Assembly (NCBI RefSeq): GCF_003149145.1 | Contig: NZ_QGDQ01000013.1 | Location: 62,001 to 126,000 of the forward strand | From: Quadrisphaera granulorum | GTDB lineage: Bacteria; Actinomycetota; Actinomycetes; Actinomycetales; Quadrisphaeraceae | DNA: 64,000 bases | Reading direction: 5' to 3' | Shown here: positions 12,288 through 18,019 of the stretch, one piece after another | How positions within the stretch are numbered: the stretch's first letter is position 1 | How the letters are laid out: every line of letters begins with the position of its first letter | Notes under the pieces: generated by a model | The model's database searches: none | Told to the model about the DNA's origin: nothing | What the model saw: only the letters and a program-made list of their open reading frames with translations | Position numbers and translations under genes: made by a program

Positions 12288-13145
12288 GTGCCCACGTACG
12301 CCATCACCGGAGCCACCGGCCAGTTCGGCCGTCTCGCCGTCGCCGAGCTGCTGCGCCGCGGCACGGCACCTGCCGACGTCGTCGCCCTGGTCCGCGACCC
12401 CGCCAAGGCCGCCGACCTCAGCGCGAGCGGCGTCGACGTCCGCGAGGCCGACTACGACCGCCCCGAGACCCTCGAGCCGGCCCTGAAGGGCGTCGACGCC
12501 CTCCTCTTCGTCTCCGGCAACTCCGTCGGGGCGCGGGTGCCGCAGCACACCGCCGTCGTCGACGCCGCGAAGGCCGCCGGGGTGGGCCGGATCGTTTACA
12601 CCTCCGTGCTGCGCGCCGCCAGCTCCGACCTGCCGGTCGCCCCGGACCACGTGGCCACCGAGGGCCTGCTGGCCGCGTCCGGCATCCCCACCACCGTCCT
12701 GCGCAACGGCTGGTACACCGAGAACTACTTCGGGCTGCTAAGCCAGGCGGAGGCCACCGGGTCGATCGCCAGCGCCACGCGCGGCGCCGCCGTGAGCCCC
12801 GCCACCCGCGCCGACCTGGCCGCTGCGGCGGCGGCGGCCCTGCTCGACGAGAGCACCGCCGGGCGCACCTACGAGCTGGCCGGCCCCTCCTTCACGCTGA
12901 CCGAGCTGGCCGCTGCCTTCTCCGAGGTCCTGGGCCGTGAGGTGGTCCACCACGAGGTCTCCGTCGAGGAGCTCACCGCGGGCCTGCAGGCCGCCGGGCT
13001 CGACGCGGGCACCGCCGGCTTCTACGCGGCCGTCGACGTCGCCACCGCCGGCGGCGCCCTGGAGGGCAGCACCGCTGACCTCGAGGAGCTCCTGGGCCGC
13101 CCGGCAACCCCGCTCACCGACGCGCTGCGCGCCGCTCGCGTCTGA
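12288..13145 (+). CDS. NmrA/QOR2-like NAD(P)H-binding oxidoreductase
   Basis: 285-residue atypical short-chain dehydrogenase. The Rossmann motif ITGATGQFGRLAVAEL is at the N-terminus, followed by VVALVRDPAKAADL, the FVSGNSVGARVPQHTAVVDAAKAAGVGRIVYTS segment and the RNGWYTENY motif of QOR2/YtfG-type NADPH:quinone reductases. GTG at 12288 is preceded by AGGAGG with four-base spacing. Divergent transcription from an HxlR regulator suggests induction by electrophiles or quinones, as known for such pairs. The substrate is not determined. Confidence 0.87.
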   Translation: MPTYAITGATGQFGRLAVAELLRRGTAPADVVALVRDPAKAADLSASGVDVREADYDRPETLEPALKGVDALLFVSGNSVGARVPQHTAVVDAAKAAGVGRIVYTSVLRAASSDLPVAPDHVATEGLLAASGIPTTVLRNGWYTENYFGLLSQAEATGSIASATRGAAVSPATRADLAAAAAAALLDESTAGRTYELAGPSFTLTELAAAFSEVLGREVVHHEVSVEELTAGLQAAGLDAGTAGFYAAVDVATAGGALEGSTADLEELLGRPATPLTDALRAARV

Positions 13146-13151
13146 CGGGTC

Positions 13152-13169
13152 GCGCCGCCGCTGCGGCGC
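13152..13169. terminator. Convergent hairpin between nmrA-like and response-regulator genes
   Basis: GCGCCGC-cgct-GCGGCGC forms a 7-bp stem in the 38 bases between two convergent stop codons. It could serve both strands. Confidence 0.55.
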
Positions 13170-13183
13170 ACCGCTGCCGGGTG

Positions 13184-13837
13184 TCAGGCGCCCGTGGCCC
13201 GCAGATAGGTCACGGCCGCCAGCACCCGGCGGTGGTCCGCCGTCGACGGCGGCAGGCCGAGCTTGGTGAAGATGCTCGCCACGTGCTTCTCCACGGCACC
13301 CTCGGACACGACGAGGGCGTCGCGGATGGCGGCGTTGGAGCGGCCCTCGGCCACGAGCGCCAGCACCTCGCGCTCACGCGGGGTGAGCGCGGCGAGGGGG
13401 TCGTCGCGGCGACGGCGGGCCAGGAGCTGCGCGACCACTTCTGGGTCGAGGGCCGTGCCACCTGCTGCGACGGCGTCGAGTGCGCCGGTGAGCGCGTCGA
13501 GGTCGGCCACCCGGTCCTTGAGCAGGTAAGCCACGCCGCCGCGCCCGTCGCCGAGGAGGTCGGCGGCGTAGGAGGCCTCGACGTACTGCGAGAGCACCAC
13601 CACCGCGAGGTCGGGCTGGCGGCGCCGGGCCTCGACGGCGGCGCGCAGGCCGTCGTCGGTGTGACCCGGGGGCATCCGGACGTCGACGACGGCGACGTCG
13701 GGCGCGTGCGCGGCGACGGCGTCGAGCAGGGAGGGCGCGTCACCGACGGCGGCGACCACCTCGTGGCCCGCCTCGGCGAGCAGGCGCACGAGCCCCTCGC
13801 GCAGCAGCACCGAGTCCTCCGCGACGACCACCCTCAC
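13184..13837 (-). CDS. LuxR/NarL-family response regulator
   Basis: 217 residues. The receiver domain has acidic residues near the start (VVVAEDS), phospho-acceptor Asp52 in VVDVRMPPGH, and Lys107 in YLLKDR. The C-terminal LuxR helix-turn-helix is LTPREREVLALVAEGRSNAAIRDALVVSEGAVEKHVASIFTKLGL. It is partner to the sensor kinase encoded upstream on the same strand. Unusually, the 133 bases between them hold a long perfect hairpin repeat, so the two may not be a simple operon. GTG at 13837. Targets unknown. Confidence 0.93.
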   Translation of the reverse strand: MRVVVAEDSVLLREGLVRLLAEAGHEVVAAVGDAPSLLDAVAAHAPDVAVVDVRMPPGHTDDGLRAAVEARRRQPDLAVVVLSQYVEASYAADLLGDGRGGVAYLLKDRVADLDALTGALDAVAAGGTALDPEVVAQLLARRRRDDPLAALTPREREVLALVAEGRSNAAIRDALVVSEGAVEKHVASIFTKLGLPPSTADHRRVLAAVTYLRATGA

Positions 13838-13872
13838 GCCGCCGATGCTCCCAGACCCCCCGCTCCCCCTCC

Positions 13873-13954
13873 GTGATCATGGGCGTCCGCCACCCCTGGA
13901 GGTGGCGGACGCCCATGATCACGACTTGAGAGGGTGGCGGACGCCCATGATCAC
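13873..13954. repeat. Palindromic repeat cluster between response regulator and kinase
   Basis: Two perfect 22-bp arms in inverted orientation (13873-13894 and 13901-13922, six-base loop), and a third full copy in direct orientation with the second at 13933-13954. Each unit contains GGTGGCGGACGCCC and ends in CCATGATCAC. This is a strong hairpin in RNA or DNA. The 10-bp end word recurs three times on the other side of the kinase gene (15504-15611). Confidence 0.85.
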
Positions 13955-13970
13955 CGTGGGGAGGTCGGGG

Positions 13971-15341
13971 TCAGGGCAGGGGGAGACGGGCCTCCACCAC
14001 GGTCGGGCCGCCGGCCGGGCTCGCCACGGTGAGCGCGCCGTCCACCGCCTGGGCCCGGGCCACCAGCCCGCGAAGACCTGTGCCCGTCGGGCTGGACGGG
14101 TCGGCGCCACCGACGCCGTCGTCCTCGACCCTCACCACCAGCCAACGCCCCTCCGGCTCCGCACGGACCGTGAGGTCCACCACGGCGGCCCGGGCCCCGC
14201 TGTGCTTGGCGGCGTTGGTCAGTGCCTCGGCGACGACGAAGTACGCCGCCCGCTCCACCCCGCCCGGCAGGGCGCCCAACGCCCCGGCCCGCACCGTGGC
14301 CGGCACCGCGCTGCGCGACGCGAGGGATTCCACAGCCGCCACGAGGCCGCGGTCGGCCAGCACGGGCGGCGCGATGCCGCGGGACAGCGCGCGCAGCTCG
14401 GCGAGGGCCTCCTGCGCCTGCTGGCGCGCCTCGGCGAGCGCGGTCGCTGCGGCCTCGGCGTCGCCAGCGGCCAGGCGGCGCTGGGTGGCGGCGAGGTCCA
14501 TCTCCAGGCGCACGAGGCGCTGCTGGGGACCGTCGTGCAGGTCGCGCTCCAATGAACGCAGGGCGGCCGCCTCGGCATCGGAGGCCGCGGCGCGGCTGGC
14601 GGTGAGCACCTCGACGCGCTGGGCCAGGGCCCGCACCGAGGAGTTGCCGATGGTGCCGCGGGCGAAGACGGCGTGGGCGAAGGCCAACCCGCGGACCACA
14701 GGCACGAGTGTCACGAGCAGCGCGAGACCCACGAGCACCTGCCACACGACGGGCAGCGCGTCGATCCCCGCGATCGAGACCCGGCCGGGGGCCACCGCCG
14801 CCTGGGCACGCTCGCCCCAGGACCACCAGCTGACGGCCGTCAGGCCGGTGACCAGCCAGGCAACGGTGATCGACCAGGTGATGGTGGCCAGGGCGACAGC
14901 GATGGAGCCGTGGAGCAGGTCGAGCCAGAGCTGGCCGTCACGAAGCCAGTCCCACCAGCGCCACCAGGGGCCGGTGCGGGTCGGGGCCGGAGGCGTCAGG
15001 GGCGAGCCGGCCGGGCGCGGAGCGGGGATGCGCTCCCCCGTCCACGCCAGGCGGAACCTCTCGACGTGCGCGAACGCGCGAGCGCACGCCAGCGTTGCCA
15101 GCAGCGCGATGATCGCCACCGGAATGAGGACCACGCTGCTCACGAGGCTGGTCACCAGGCTGGCCAGCGACCACAGCACCGCGGCGGAGACGGCCGCCAC
15201 GGGGAGGCCTGTGAGCAGGTAGAGAAGGTCGCCGGGGGTCCGGCGGAGCCACCCGACGACGACGGACGCGGCCGGGCGAGCCGCGGGTGGTGAGACATCG
15301 GACGTGGCCGCCGGGAGCGGGGCCGTGGTGGTGTTCGTCAT
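13971..15341 (-). CDS. Sensor histidine kinase (HisKA_3, four-helix sensor domain)
   Basis: 456 residues. The N-terminal half has four predicted membrane segments (about residues 45-60, 68-88, 145-172, 198-216) resembling the actinobacterial PF13796 Sensor domain. A HisKA_3 dimerisation helix follows with phospho-acceptor His269 in RSLERDLHDGPQQRLV, then a GHKL ATPase domain with N box EALTNAAKHSGA, G1 DDGVGGAD and G2 GTGLRGL. ATG at 15341 has GAGG about ten bases upstream. It should phosphorylate the LuxR-type regulator downstream; the signal is unknown, perhaps membrane or cell-wall stress as for LiaS/DesK relatives. Palindromic repeats lie on both sides. Confidence 0.92.
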   Translation of the reverse strand: MTNTTTAPLPAATSDVSPPAARPAASVVVGWLRRTPGDLLYLLTGLPVAAVSAAVLWSLASLVTSLVSSVVLIPVAIIALLATLACARAFAHVERFRLAWTGERIPAPRPAGSPLTPPAPTRTGPWWRWWDWLRDGQLWLDLLHGSIAVALATITWSITVAWLVTGLTAVSWWSWGERAQAAVAPGRVSIAGIDALPVVWQVLVGLALLVTLVPVVRGLAFAHAVFARGTIGNSSVRALAQRVEVLTASRAAASDAEAAALRSLERDLHDGPQQRLVRLEMDLAATQRRLAAGDAEAAATALAEARQQAQEALAELRALSRGIAPPVLADRGLVAAVESLASRSAVPATVRAGALGALPGGVERAAYFVVAEALTNAAKHSGARAAVVDLTVRAEPEGRWLVVRVEDDGVGGADPSSPTGTGLRGLVARAQAVDGALTVASPAGGPTVVEARLPLP

Positions 15342-15650
15342 GGCATCGAGCCTCGTCGCGCGGCGCATCGCGGACCATGGTGCGGCCCGGCGTCTGCGGG
15401 GTGGGGCCAGCCCCACCCGCAGCACCCGGCCAGCCCCCAGCGCGACGGGGCAGCTCTGCACTCAGCCGCCCTCACCGCGCCGAGGAAGGGCCTTACCCAG
15501 TCCGTGATCATGGACTTCCCGAACATGTCACGATGACGAGCTCGCCGAGGGCGAAGGTGGCCAACCGCCCATGATCACGGCTCGAAAGCCGCTTCGGAGG
15601 TCCATGATCACCGCCGGTTGGGTGTGCTCACCACGCCGTCAGCCCGGCTG
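15342..15650. other. 309-base intergenic region upstream of the kinase gene
   Basis: No convincing gene. It contains the upstream kinase leader and a cluster of three CCATGATCAC/GTGATCATGG words (next entry). No clear -35/-10 pair was recognised. Confidence 0.6.
15504..15611. repeat. Second cluster of the CCATGATCAC repeat
   Basis: The 10-bp word occurs as GTGATCATGG at 15504-15513 and CCATGATCAC at 15569-15578 and 15602-15611. The middle copy has the extended context GGTGGCCAACCGCCCATGAT (from 15557), close to the full unit at 13901-13954. The core TGATCA is itself palindromic. Confidence 0.75.
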
Positions 15651-16382
15651 TCAGCGGAGCGCGAACCGCTGCAGCTCGCCGGCGTACGCCTTGGCCGGTG
15701 GCCGTGCGTACTCCCCGCGCCGGCTGGTGGACAGGCCGGCCAGCACGAGCGCCTGCGCCATCCCCACCGCCGCGGCGACGCCGTCGACGACGGGCACGCC
15801 CAGCTCGTCCGACAGCGACGCCGCGAGGTCGGTCATGCCGGCGCAGCCGAGGACGATCACGTCGCTGCCGTCGTCGTCGAGAGCCCTCGCGCACGCAGCG
15901 GCGATGGAGGCCCGGGCCAGCGGGTCGGTCTCGAGCTCGAGCACCGGGATCTCGCAGGCGTGCACGCCCGCGCAGTGCTCCCCGAAGCCGTAGCGGACGG
16001 CCAGCTCGCGGGCCCGCGCGGTGGTCCGTCCCAGCGTGGTCACCACGCTGAAGGACCGCCCGACCAGGACCGCAGCGTGCATGGCGGCCTCGGCGATGCC
16101 GAGCACCGGCCCGCGGGCCACCTCGCGGCAGGCGTCCAGGCCGGGATCTCCGAAGCAGGCCACGACGTGCGCGTCGGCCCCCGTGGCGCTGCCCTCGAGC
16201 ACCGCCTCCAGCAGGCCGGGCACGGCGAGGGCCTCGTCGTAGTGGCTCTCGATGCTCGCCGGGCCGGAGCGGGAGGTGACGGCGCGCACGGTGGTGCCCG
16301 GGCCTGCTGCGGCCCGGGCACCCTCCGCGACGAGCGCCGTCATGGACCCCGTGGTGTTGGGGTTGACGACGTCGACGATCAC
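15651..16382 (-). CDS. Asp/Glu/hydantoin racemase family protein
   Basis: 243 residues of the aspartate/glutamate/hydantoin racemase superfamily. The two catalytic cysteines are at residue 76 (VVACFGDPG) and residue 180 (VLGCAGMT), and the N-terminal VNPNTT motif is the phosphate/substrate turn typical of hydantoin and allantoin racemases. The GTG start overlaps the permease stop (GTGA), so it is coupled to the NCS1 permease gene. Together they suggest uptake and racemisation of a hydantoin-like compound such as allantoin, but no hydantoinase or allantoinase is in the window. Substrate is inferred from family and context only. Confidence 0.87.
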   Translation of the reverse strand: MIVDVVNPNTTGSMTALVAEGARAAAGPGTTVRAVTSRSGPASIESHYDEALAVPGLLEAVLEGSATGADAHVVACFGDPGLDACREVARGPVLGIAEAAMHAAVLVGRSFSVVTTLGRTTARARELAVRYGFGEHCAGVHACEIPVLELETDPLARASIAAACARALDDDGSDVIVLGCAGMTDLAASLSDELGVPVVDGVAAAVGMAQALVLAGLSTSRRGEYARPPAKAYAGELQRFALR

Positions 16383-18019
16383 CGGACGTCCACCACCCGC
16401 GGGGTCTCGTCGGTGACGACGGTGCCGTCGGTCATGCCGGTCCCGCCTTCGGCGACCGCCATGGCGGTCAGCGTCGGAGAGCCGGGGCGCAGGGCGAGGG
16501 CGCGGTAGACCACGAGGCCGAGGCCGCAGCCGATGAACCACGCCCAGTCGCTGACCCACAGCGCCTCGCCGAGCAGGCGGGGCAGCAGCACCGAGGCGAT
16601 GGCGACGCCACCGGCGACGGCCGTGGCGATGACGGCGTCGGGGTTGTAGCCCTTGCGGTACCAGTAGCCAGCGCGCTCGTCCATCGAGTACATGGCGTCG
16701 ACGGCGATGCGCTGCTTGCGCACGAGGAAGTAGTCGGCGATGAGCACGCCGAACAGCGGGCCGATGAGCGCGCCGAGGATGCCGAGCGTGTAGTGGATGG
16801 CGGTGTCGTTCGCGTACCAGTTCCACGGCGTCAGGACCACGGAGCCGACGGCGGCGATCATGCCGCCGGCGCGCCAGGAGATCTTCTGCGGGTTGACGTT
16901 GGAGAAGTCGAACGCCGGGGCGATGAAGTTGGCCACGATGTTGATGCCGATGGTGGCGGTCGTGAAGGTCACCGCGCCGAGCACCACGGCGAACGTCGAG
17001 TCGATCTGCGCGACCGTCTCCACCGGGTCGGTGATGAGGCGGCCGTACACGGGCAGCGTCGCAGCGGCGGTCAGCACGGTGAGCAGCGAGAACAGCACGA
17101 AGTTCACCGGGAGCCCGAGGAAGTTGCCCTTCTTCACGGCGCCGAAGGTGCGGGCGTAGCGGGAGAAGTCACCGAAGTTGAGCATCGGGCCGGAGAAGTA
17201 GGCGACGACGAGCGCGGTGGCCGAGAGCATCGTGCCGAGCTGCTGCAGCGGGGTCAGCGACACCTCCGACAGCGTGAGGGAGACGTTGAAGTCGGCCTTG
17301 ACGAGCAGGTACCCGCACAGGATGAACATCACGACGTACACGGCGGGGCCGCAGAAGTCGATGAACCTGCGGATGGCCTCCATGCCGCGCCAGAAGACCG
17401 CCGCCTGCACCGCCCACAGGAAGGCGTACGTGGCGTAGCCGAGCACGCTCAGCCCGAGGAAACCGTGCTGGGAGGCGTCGGCCCAGGGGGTCAGGCCCGG
17501 CCACAGCCGGATGAGGACGACGTCGAGCGCGGCCGAGGCGAGGTAGGTCTGGATGCCGTACCAGGCCACGGCGATGGCTCCGCGGATGATCGCGGGGATG
17601 TTGGCGCCCTTGACGCCGAACACGGCCCGGTTGACGACGGCGTACGGAACGCCCGTGACCTGGCTCGGCTTGGCCACGAGGTTGCACAGGAAGTACACGA
17701 TGGTGATGCCGGCGATGAGCGCCACGAACACCTGCCAGCTCGCCAGGCCGAGGGCGAAGAGGCTGCCCGCGGTGACGTACCCGCCGACGCTGTGCACGTC
17801 AGACATCCAGAACGCGAAGAGGTTGTACGAGCCCCACTTCTGCTCGCGCAGGGGGGCGAGGTCGGCGTTGGTCAGGCGCGGGTCGTAGCCGGGCTTGATG
17901 AGCGCATCACCGGCGGCCCCGTGCGCGGCGACCGGGGCTGCGGCGGTGGGACTGTCGACGACGCCGGCGGCCGGCGAGGCGCCGCTCGCGCTGCGCCGGC
18001 TGGTGGTGGTCTCGGGCAC
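16379..18019 (-). CDS. NCS1-family nucleobase/hydantoin/allantoin permease
   Basis: 546-residue transporter of the nucleobase:cation symporter-1 family (Mhp1, PucI). About 12 membrane segments follow a 45-residue Ala/Ser-rich cytosolic N-terminus. The family start motif LTNADLAPLREQKWGSYNLFAFWMSDVHSVGGY matches Mhp1-type proteins, and KPSQVTGVPYAVVNRAVFGVKGANIPA is the conserved loop 2. GTG at 18019 has AGGAG seven to eight bases upstream. It is cotranscribed with the racemase gene, with gntR upstream on the same strand. Likely substrate: hydantoin, allantoin or a pyrimidine/purine base. Confidence 0.9.
   Translation of the reverse strand: MPETTTSRRSASGASPAAGVVDSPTAAAPVAAHGAAGDALIKPGYDPRLTNADLAPLREQKWGSYNLFAFWMSDVHSVGGYVTAGSLFALGLASWQVFVALIAGITIVYFLCNLVAKPSQVTGVPYAVVNRAVFGVKGANIPAIIRGAIAVAWYGIQTYLASAALDVVLIRLWPGLTPWADASQHGFLGLSVLGYATYAFLWAVQAAVFWRGMEAIRRFIDFCGPAVYVVMFILCGYLLVKADFNVSLTLSEVSLTPLQQLGTMLSATALVVAYFSGPMLNFGDFSRYARTFGAVKKGNFLGLPVNFVLFSLLTVLTAAATLPVYGRLITDPVETVAQIDSTFAVVLGAVTFTTATIGINIVANFIAPAFDFSNVNPQKISWRAGGMIAAVGSVVLTPWNWYANDTAIHYTLGILGALIGPLFGVLIADYFLVRKQRIAVDAMYSMDERAGYWYRKGYNPDAVIATAVAGGVAIASVLLPRLLGEALWVSDWAWFIGCGLGLVVYRALALRPGSPTLTAMAVAEGGTGMTDGTVVTDETPRVVDVR

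Follow-up and report, generated by a model that had tools for sequence, protein, structure and literature searches.

REP-like repeats are known chiefly from Proteobacteria, and RAYT transposases are usually held responsible for their spread. In the REP families treated in PMC3733652, a paper in which the word "actinobacteria" does not occur, each unit folds into a stem-loop and carries an unpaired tag, GTAG or CGTC. Such units are 20-40 bp long, number hundreds of copies, lie in intergenic regions between convergent as well as unidirectional genes, and are often found downstream of genes and often as inverted dimers (PMC3733652). RAYT-linked REPs and REPINs have been described as well (PMC2817692, PMC3116915); in REPINs and BIMEs two inverted units form a longer hairpin with variable arms, and composite clusters also occur (PMC3116915, PMC2817692).

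Here we describe an abundant REP-like family in high-GC actinobacteria without RAYT. The starting point was a stretch of 64,000 nucleotides from Quadrisphaera granulorum, referred to below as the window.

Repeat units at a sensor kinase locus

The initial annotation of the window had noted six copies of the word CCATGATCAC in two clusters of three, on both sides of a kinase gene. A word search of the window recovered all six copies at the noted positions (Table 1) and zero beyond them, as had been claimed. Dinucleotide shuffles gave an expectation of 0.03 copies and none of the shuffles reached six, which bears out the excess over expectation. The G+C content, given as 73%, was 74% in the window. 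The perfect hairpin with an additional direct copy was found as described: positions 13872-13894 and 13901-13923 form arms of 23 nt that are 100% complementary around a 6-nt loop, and the 22-mers at 13901-13922 and 13933-13954 are identical. The two clusters do flank the kinase gene, but each of them has a 3'-end placement, past the stop codon of a minus-strand gene. An Rfam scan of the window returned one tRNA and nothing else.

Table 1. Positions of repeat units, neighbouring genes and other repeats. Coordinates are those of the window unless another locus is named; G000 is the Q. granulorum genome.
Feature	Position	Strand	Description
Cluster 1 tails, CCATGATCAC	13873-13882(-), 13913-13922(+), 13945-13954(+)		
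Cluster 2 tails, CCATGATCAC	15504-15513(-), 15569-15578(+), 15602-15611(+)		
Tail-out inverted pair	13872-13923		CGTGATCATGG-GCGTCCGCCACC-loop-GGTGGCGGACGC-CCATGATCACG, perfect 23-bp stem
Third unit of cluster 1	13933-13954	+	Direct repeat of 13901-13922, start-to-start spacing 32 bp
Cluster 2 tail copy	15504-15513	-	Arm type ACTTCCCGAACA (= TGTTCGGGAAGT)
Cluster 2 unit	15556-15578	+	Arm GGTGGCCAACCGC + CCATGATCAC, tail 15569-15578
Cluster 2 unit	15591-15611	+	Arm GCTTCGGAGGT + CCATGATCAC, tail 15602-15611, direct spacing 33 bp
Intergenic gap with cluster 1	13838-13970		133 bp, kinase 3' end to response regulator
Intergenic gap with cluster 2	15369-15650		282 bp, racemase 3' end to kinase start
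Sensor histidine kinase	13971-15368	-	Sensor, HisKA_3, HATPase_c; host-gene context, outside the element
LuxR/GerE-type response regulator	13184-13837	-	Context
Asp/Glu/hydantoin racemase	15651-16382	-	Stop faces cluster 2; context
IS110-family transposase between tail units	L063:11949-13220 (G000:C6:91949-93220)		
GGACCGCAGCCGAGCG... repeat	L172-L186		E.g. orthologues of C3:41909-42002 in G001 and G003
Second-family examples (G000)	C3:44939-44985, C6:27227-27274		
Third-family examples (G000)	C3:36355-36415, C3:57037-57097, C1:110284-110344		

Abundance, placement and taxonomic spread

In the whole genome of Q. granulorum (4.88 Mb in 86 contigs) we found 405 copies of CCATGATCAC (189 + 216) and 0 copies of the reversed-word control. 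For the analysis of placement, genes were called by a simple home-made codon-usage caller trained on 848 kb of the genome's own sequence. These 848 kb, on which the placement statistics rest, were fetched in stretches, some of them chosen for holding CCATGATCAC; an unbiased recount was made on three contiguous stretches (439 kb) that were not picked stretch by stretch. The 439-kb sample had 55 intergenic and 5 coding copies, with 0.6 intergenic copies expected from coding density, and the 848 kb had 88 intergenic copies. The genome-wide count that the initial annotation had proposed as a check thus favours its REP/BIME-like reading, the 405 copies being mostly intergenic; the opposite outcome, a word equally common in coding DNA, does not hold for this genome (55 of 60 intergenic).

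We observed that most units lie a short way past a stop codon, most of all in gaps between convergent genes. In the larger set the repeat was present in 21 of 89 convergent gaps (24%), 26 of 334 same-strand gaps and 4 of 114 divergent gaps (3.5%), an enrichment of convergent over divergent gaps with p of 7e-7 (0.001 by length). The median distance from the stop codon to the nearest tail was 16.5 bp, and at 45 of 68 3' ends the nearest tail faced the gene. Such placement bears on the suggestion that the repeats are an array to which the two-component system's LuxR-type response regulator binds. Two three-copy clusters flanking the kinase gene would fit an array; hundreds of copies at 3' ends genome-wide, depleted from divergent (promoter) gaps, do not, and cluster 2 is absent from the orthologous gaps of two congeners, G004 and G005. 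A locus-specific array is therefore contradicted by the 405 copies and their intergenic placement, and we find this explanation barely credible.

The five congeners carry 146-243 copies of CCATGATCAC each, while most other genomes in the order range from roughly 5 to 45 (58 in G007 and 85 in G027). This background is probably mostly coding, because one frame of the word encodes Met-Ile-Thr. When 394 genomes were drawn evenly from the class, Q. granulorum had the highest count by far. The number of exact tail-out inverted pairs is a cleaner measure than the raw counts: there are 57 in Q. granulorum, 21-29 in the congeners and 0 for the control. Outside the genus, such pairs numbered 4-6 in three genomes, which belong to two further genera of the family, and 1 in G027; elsewhere in the order there were 0. 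In G027, up to four units follow one another in direct arrays, and their arms closely resemble the Quadrisphaera GGTGGCGG type. Among the matches listed, the tail also occurs with unrelated arms in MAGs of Geodermatophilaceae, Frankiales/Frankiaceae and Streptosporangiaceae, and the Frankiales copies share the layout seen in the window, an inverted pair followed by a direct copy about 30 bp on.

Microlunatus speluncae (G069) has 463 copies of CCATGATCAC, an excess over other actinobacteria. The 30 contexts examined in this species look mostly coding-like, without inverted partners; therefore, the raw count alone misleads. Four matches on viral contigs had unrelated inner sequences and were taken as chance. 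In a literature search for the word CCATGATCAC the best-ranked 15 of 268 matches were all on unrelated subjects.

Fixed tail, variable arms and hairpin folding

The unit consists of an almost invariant 10-bp tail, CCATGATCAC, and a variable arm of 12-13 bp. A unit may stand alone, form an inverted pair with a second unit of matching arm, or be repeated in direct orientation at intervals of about 31-32 bp; the aligned copies show several unrelated arm types (GGTGGCGGACGC, GGTGGCCGACTGC, GGTGGCCAACCGC, GTGCACAACTC, TGTTCGGGAAGT). In the 439-kb sample 55 exact intergenic tails compare with 10 one-mismatch tails; with 5.6 one-mismatch tails expected from coding density, about 4 stand above background. 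Within an element of Q. granulorum 10.9 of 12 arm positions pair, compared to 7.4 across elements (permutation 0/2000). The matching of arms was repeated in the congener G001 (permutation 0/5000), and the arms of its 39-bp pairs were poorly paired. Ten nearly fixed outer letters next to varying inner arms suggest that these letters are still being read by something in the cell.

Spacing is restricted as well. Direct neighbours lie 29-35 bp apart in Q. granulorum, mostly 31-32 bp, about 30 bp apart in Frankiales, and 32 and 41-43 bp apart in G027. The outer spans of the pairs listed for Q. granulorum and G001 were 39, 47-52 (a few 53-55) and 57-60 bp, with none at 40-46 bp; the best fit to a period was near 10.5 bp, from a small sample of pairs that are not independent.

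The RNA fold of window positions 13838-13973 on the minus strand had a z of -6.1, and the computed hairpins of tail-out pairs were at about -45 kcal/mol (mean of 17 pairs). A single unit did not fold as a stem-loop (monomer mean dG -5.6 vs -5.5 in shuffles). No T-run was seen after the stem, with a T fraction of 0.13 in the following 12 nt, and a search for terminator-like sites at 13000-16500 returned none. With neither a U-tract nor a terminator-like site, termination is not implied by sequence rules.

High-GC actinobacteria have U-tract-less bidirectional terminators. The CCATGATCAC elements are similar to these in having a strong GC-rich hairpin between convergent genes and no T-run, but differ in sharing a fixed 10-mer, which to our knowledge terminators do not do across loci and families. 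The elements could still be ordinary unrelated terminators, alike by chance or by convergent selection for hairpins, and convergent gaps do hold strong hairpins with or without the repeat (z of -4.1 without it). A hairpin, however, needs no fixed 10-mer, and the 88 intergenic copies in 848 kb stand against 0 genome-wide for the reversed-word control; we consider this reading very improbable, unrelated look-alikes being ruled out by tail identity. Also, the hairpin cannot be the sole selected feature, because the big hairpin cannot arise in those gaps that have direct repeats only, and because the arms in the 39-bp pairs of G001 match poorly.

The explanation that we prefer, with moderate confidence, is that CCATGATCAC marks a genus-wide, REP-like, non-autonomous dispersed palindrome at transcript ends, which acts as a bidirectional RNA hairpin and whose tail is recognised by a putative protein. 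A tail-out pair transcribed as the end of the upstream message would, according to the computed fold, form a hairpin, and its placement suggests that this hairpin may terminate or shield the message, whichever strand is transcribed. Inverted pairs may thus serve as U-tract-less bidirectional terminators or as 3' processing or stability barriers; in the window, the hairpin would act between the kinase and regulator cistrons. The invariance of the tail against the variable arms points to a protein that reads the tail and keeps it exact, possibly an element-copying enzyme or a DNA-binding protein. Reading of the tail by a protein would be a step without precedent in the REP families compared. Since the tail hardly varies and the arms differ at the same sites, recognition and maintenance of REP-like DNA become testable with one oligonucleotide. 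The CCATGATCAC element is also a candidate marker for transcript ends in these genomes.

The methylation or nucleoid-protein reading of the initial annotation was kept as a rival, because a hairpin alone does not explain the near-invariant tail and the seemingly quantised spacing. The tail would then be bound, as double-stranded DNA, by a chromosomal protein of nucleoid-associated, gyrase-like or recombinase-like type, with helical phasing and with arm matching as a secondary feature. The far greater constancy of the tail than of the arms is consistent with such a site, as are the same tail with unrelated arms in the MAGs of other families and in other genera of the family (among the matches listed), the clustering of outer spans at 39, 47-52 and 57-60 bp, and the clustered direct spacings. 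On the other hand, the arms match within an element far beyond chance, and two-site binding needs no such match; the helical phasing comes from small, partly related samples. We regard a chromosomal-protein site as rather unlikely. A bolder and less likely reading is that the family may belong to a class of RAYT-independent actinobacterial palindromes that have an invariant tail (in a sister family CCTTGATCGT), exchanged arms and helical-turn spacing, with a putative reader conserved across several actinobacterial families that would copy the element or organise the chromosome at convergent ends.

Comparison with mobile repeats and sister species

Like the GTAG and CGTC REPs, the CCATGATCAC elements are abundant and intergenic, are placed at 3' ends and between convergent genes, and form inverted dimers. 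Unlike REPs, they have a single unit that does not fold and a constant 10-bp word that pairs within the dimer; base frequencies around the aligned tail showed neither a GTAG nor a CGTC tag. The inverted dimers with covarying arms (57 exact pairs; 0/2000 permutations) are similar to REPINs, but in contrast to REPIN/RAYT systems the carriers are without RAYT in six genomes. The profile search for RAYT/Y1_Tnp (PF01797), made in Q. granulorum and 58 relatives, gave 0 hits in Q. granulorum and its five congeners, thus none in the genus, while control genomes scored. CGTC REPs are likewise without a dedicated transposase (PMC3733652). The REP/BIME-like reading is, therefore, partly supported: 405 copies against 0 for the control, 55 of 60 of them intergenic in the unbiased sample, speak for a family that appears to work like REP/BIME, whereas folding, tags and RAYT do not support placing it in the described REP families.

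The elements share with MITEs a short length, non-coding sequence and inverted ends, and differ from them in lacking target-site duplications and in occurring also as single units and direct arrays. As ordinary MITEs, the units would be a DDE transposon's terminal inverted repeats and would be moved in trans; the inverted ends, high copy number and intergenic bias agree with that, as do several unrelated repeat modules nested within the same gaps. Nevertheless, flanking duplications of 2-9 bp were not in excess at 17 pairs, and the repeats commonly occur as single units, tail-in pairs or direct arrays. In the 848 kb we found seven genes closely flanked by units on both sides, the kinase included, with no evident transposase among them as judged from sequence starts (Pfam was run for the kinase alone). 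Bar one IS110 gene, apparently inserted into a repeat, no transposase gene in the 848 kb was closely unit-flanked, and we consider a MITE origin improbable.

The IS110 case concerns inverted units 1.6 kb apart on C6 that resembled element ends, with the IS110-family gene inside. This transposase was rejected as the element's engine: it is present in a single copy, is absent from congeners and looks inserted into the repeat. Its site is a repeat variant, GGGGGCACCTCCCGCT followed by TGCGGGGGACCATGATCAC, that is uninterrupted at C3:41950 and C5:172602. A precedent for IS insertion into REPs is ISPpu9 (PMC8450116).

In the orthologues of the kinase-regulator gap in G001, G004 and G005 the CCATGATCAC tails are kept and the arms differ; the gap of G004 includes a tail pair whose arm is of the GCGTTGTGCACA type. 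In G003 the gap has a degenerate pair with damaged tails. Either the site was hit repeatedly or the arms were replaced in place. The gaps orthologous to that of cluster 2 in G004 and G005 are about 110 bp long and have no repeat, which could reflect a gain in Q. granulorum or a loss in these two species. For same-strand gaps with the repeat in Q. granulorum and without it in the relative, the mean hairpin z of the relative was -3.1 (14 comparisons), compared to -0.8 (49 comparisons) for gaps without the repeat in both; the hairpin comparisons share sites and are not independent, and the orthologous comparisons rest on few sites. Since relatives without the repeat still tend to have strong hairpins, the element seems to sit at sites that preserve a hairpin.

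Several other repeats were seen in these genomes. Congeners carry another hairpin repeat, GGACCGCAGCCGAGCG..., where Q. granulorum has the tail element. A second dispersed palindrome family in Q. granulorum has the sister tail CCTTGATCGT and GTGCAGAACT-like arms; pairs of this family (tail ACGATCAAGGA/TCCTTGATCGT) number 21 in Q. granulorum, 7 in G004, 1 in G002 and 0 in the other three congeners. A third intergenic family is built of CGCACTTTCCGCGGCAAGTGCG, often paired. Finally, two elements of about 190 bp (G000:C2:274401-274592 and C2:38228-38417) carry CGATCAAGGA at each end in inverted orientation, with an inner hairpin rich in GATC (GCAGATCTTGGCGATCGATCGG), and are possibly a MITE.
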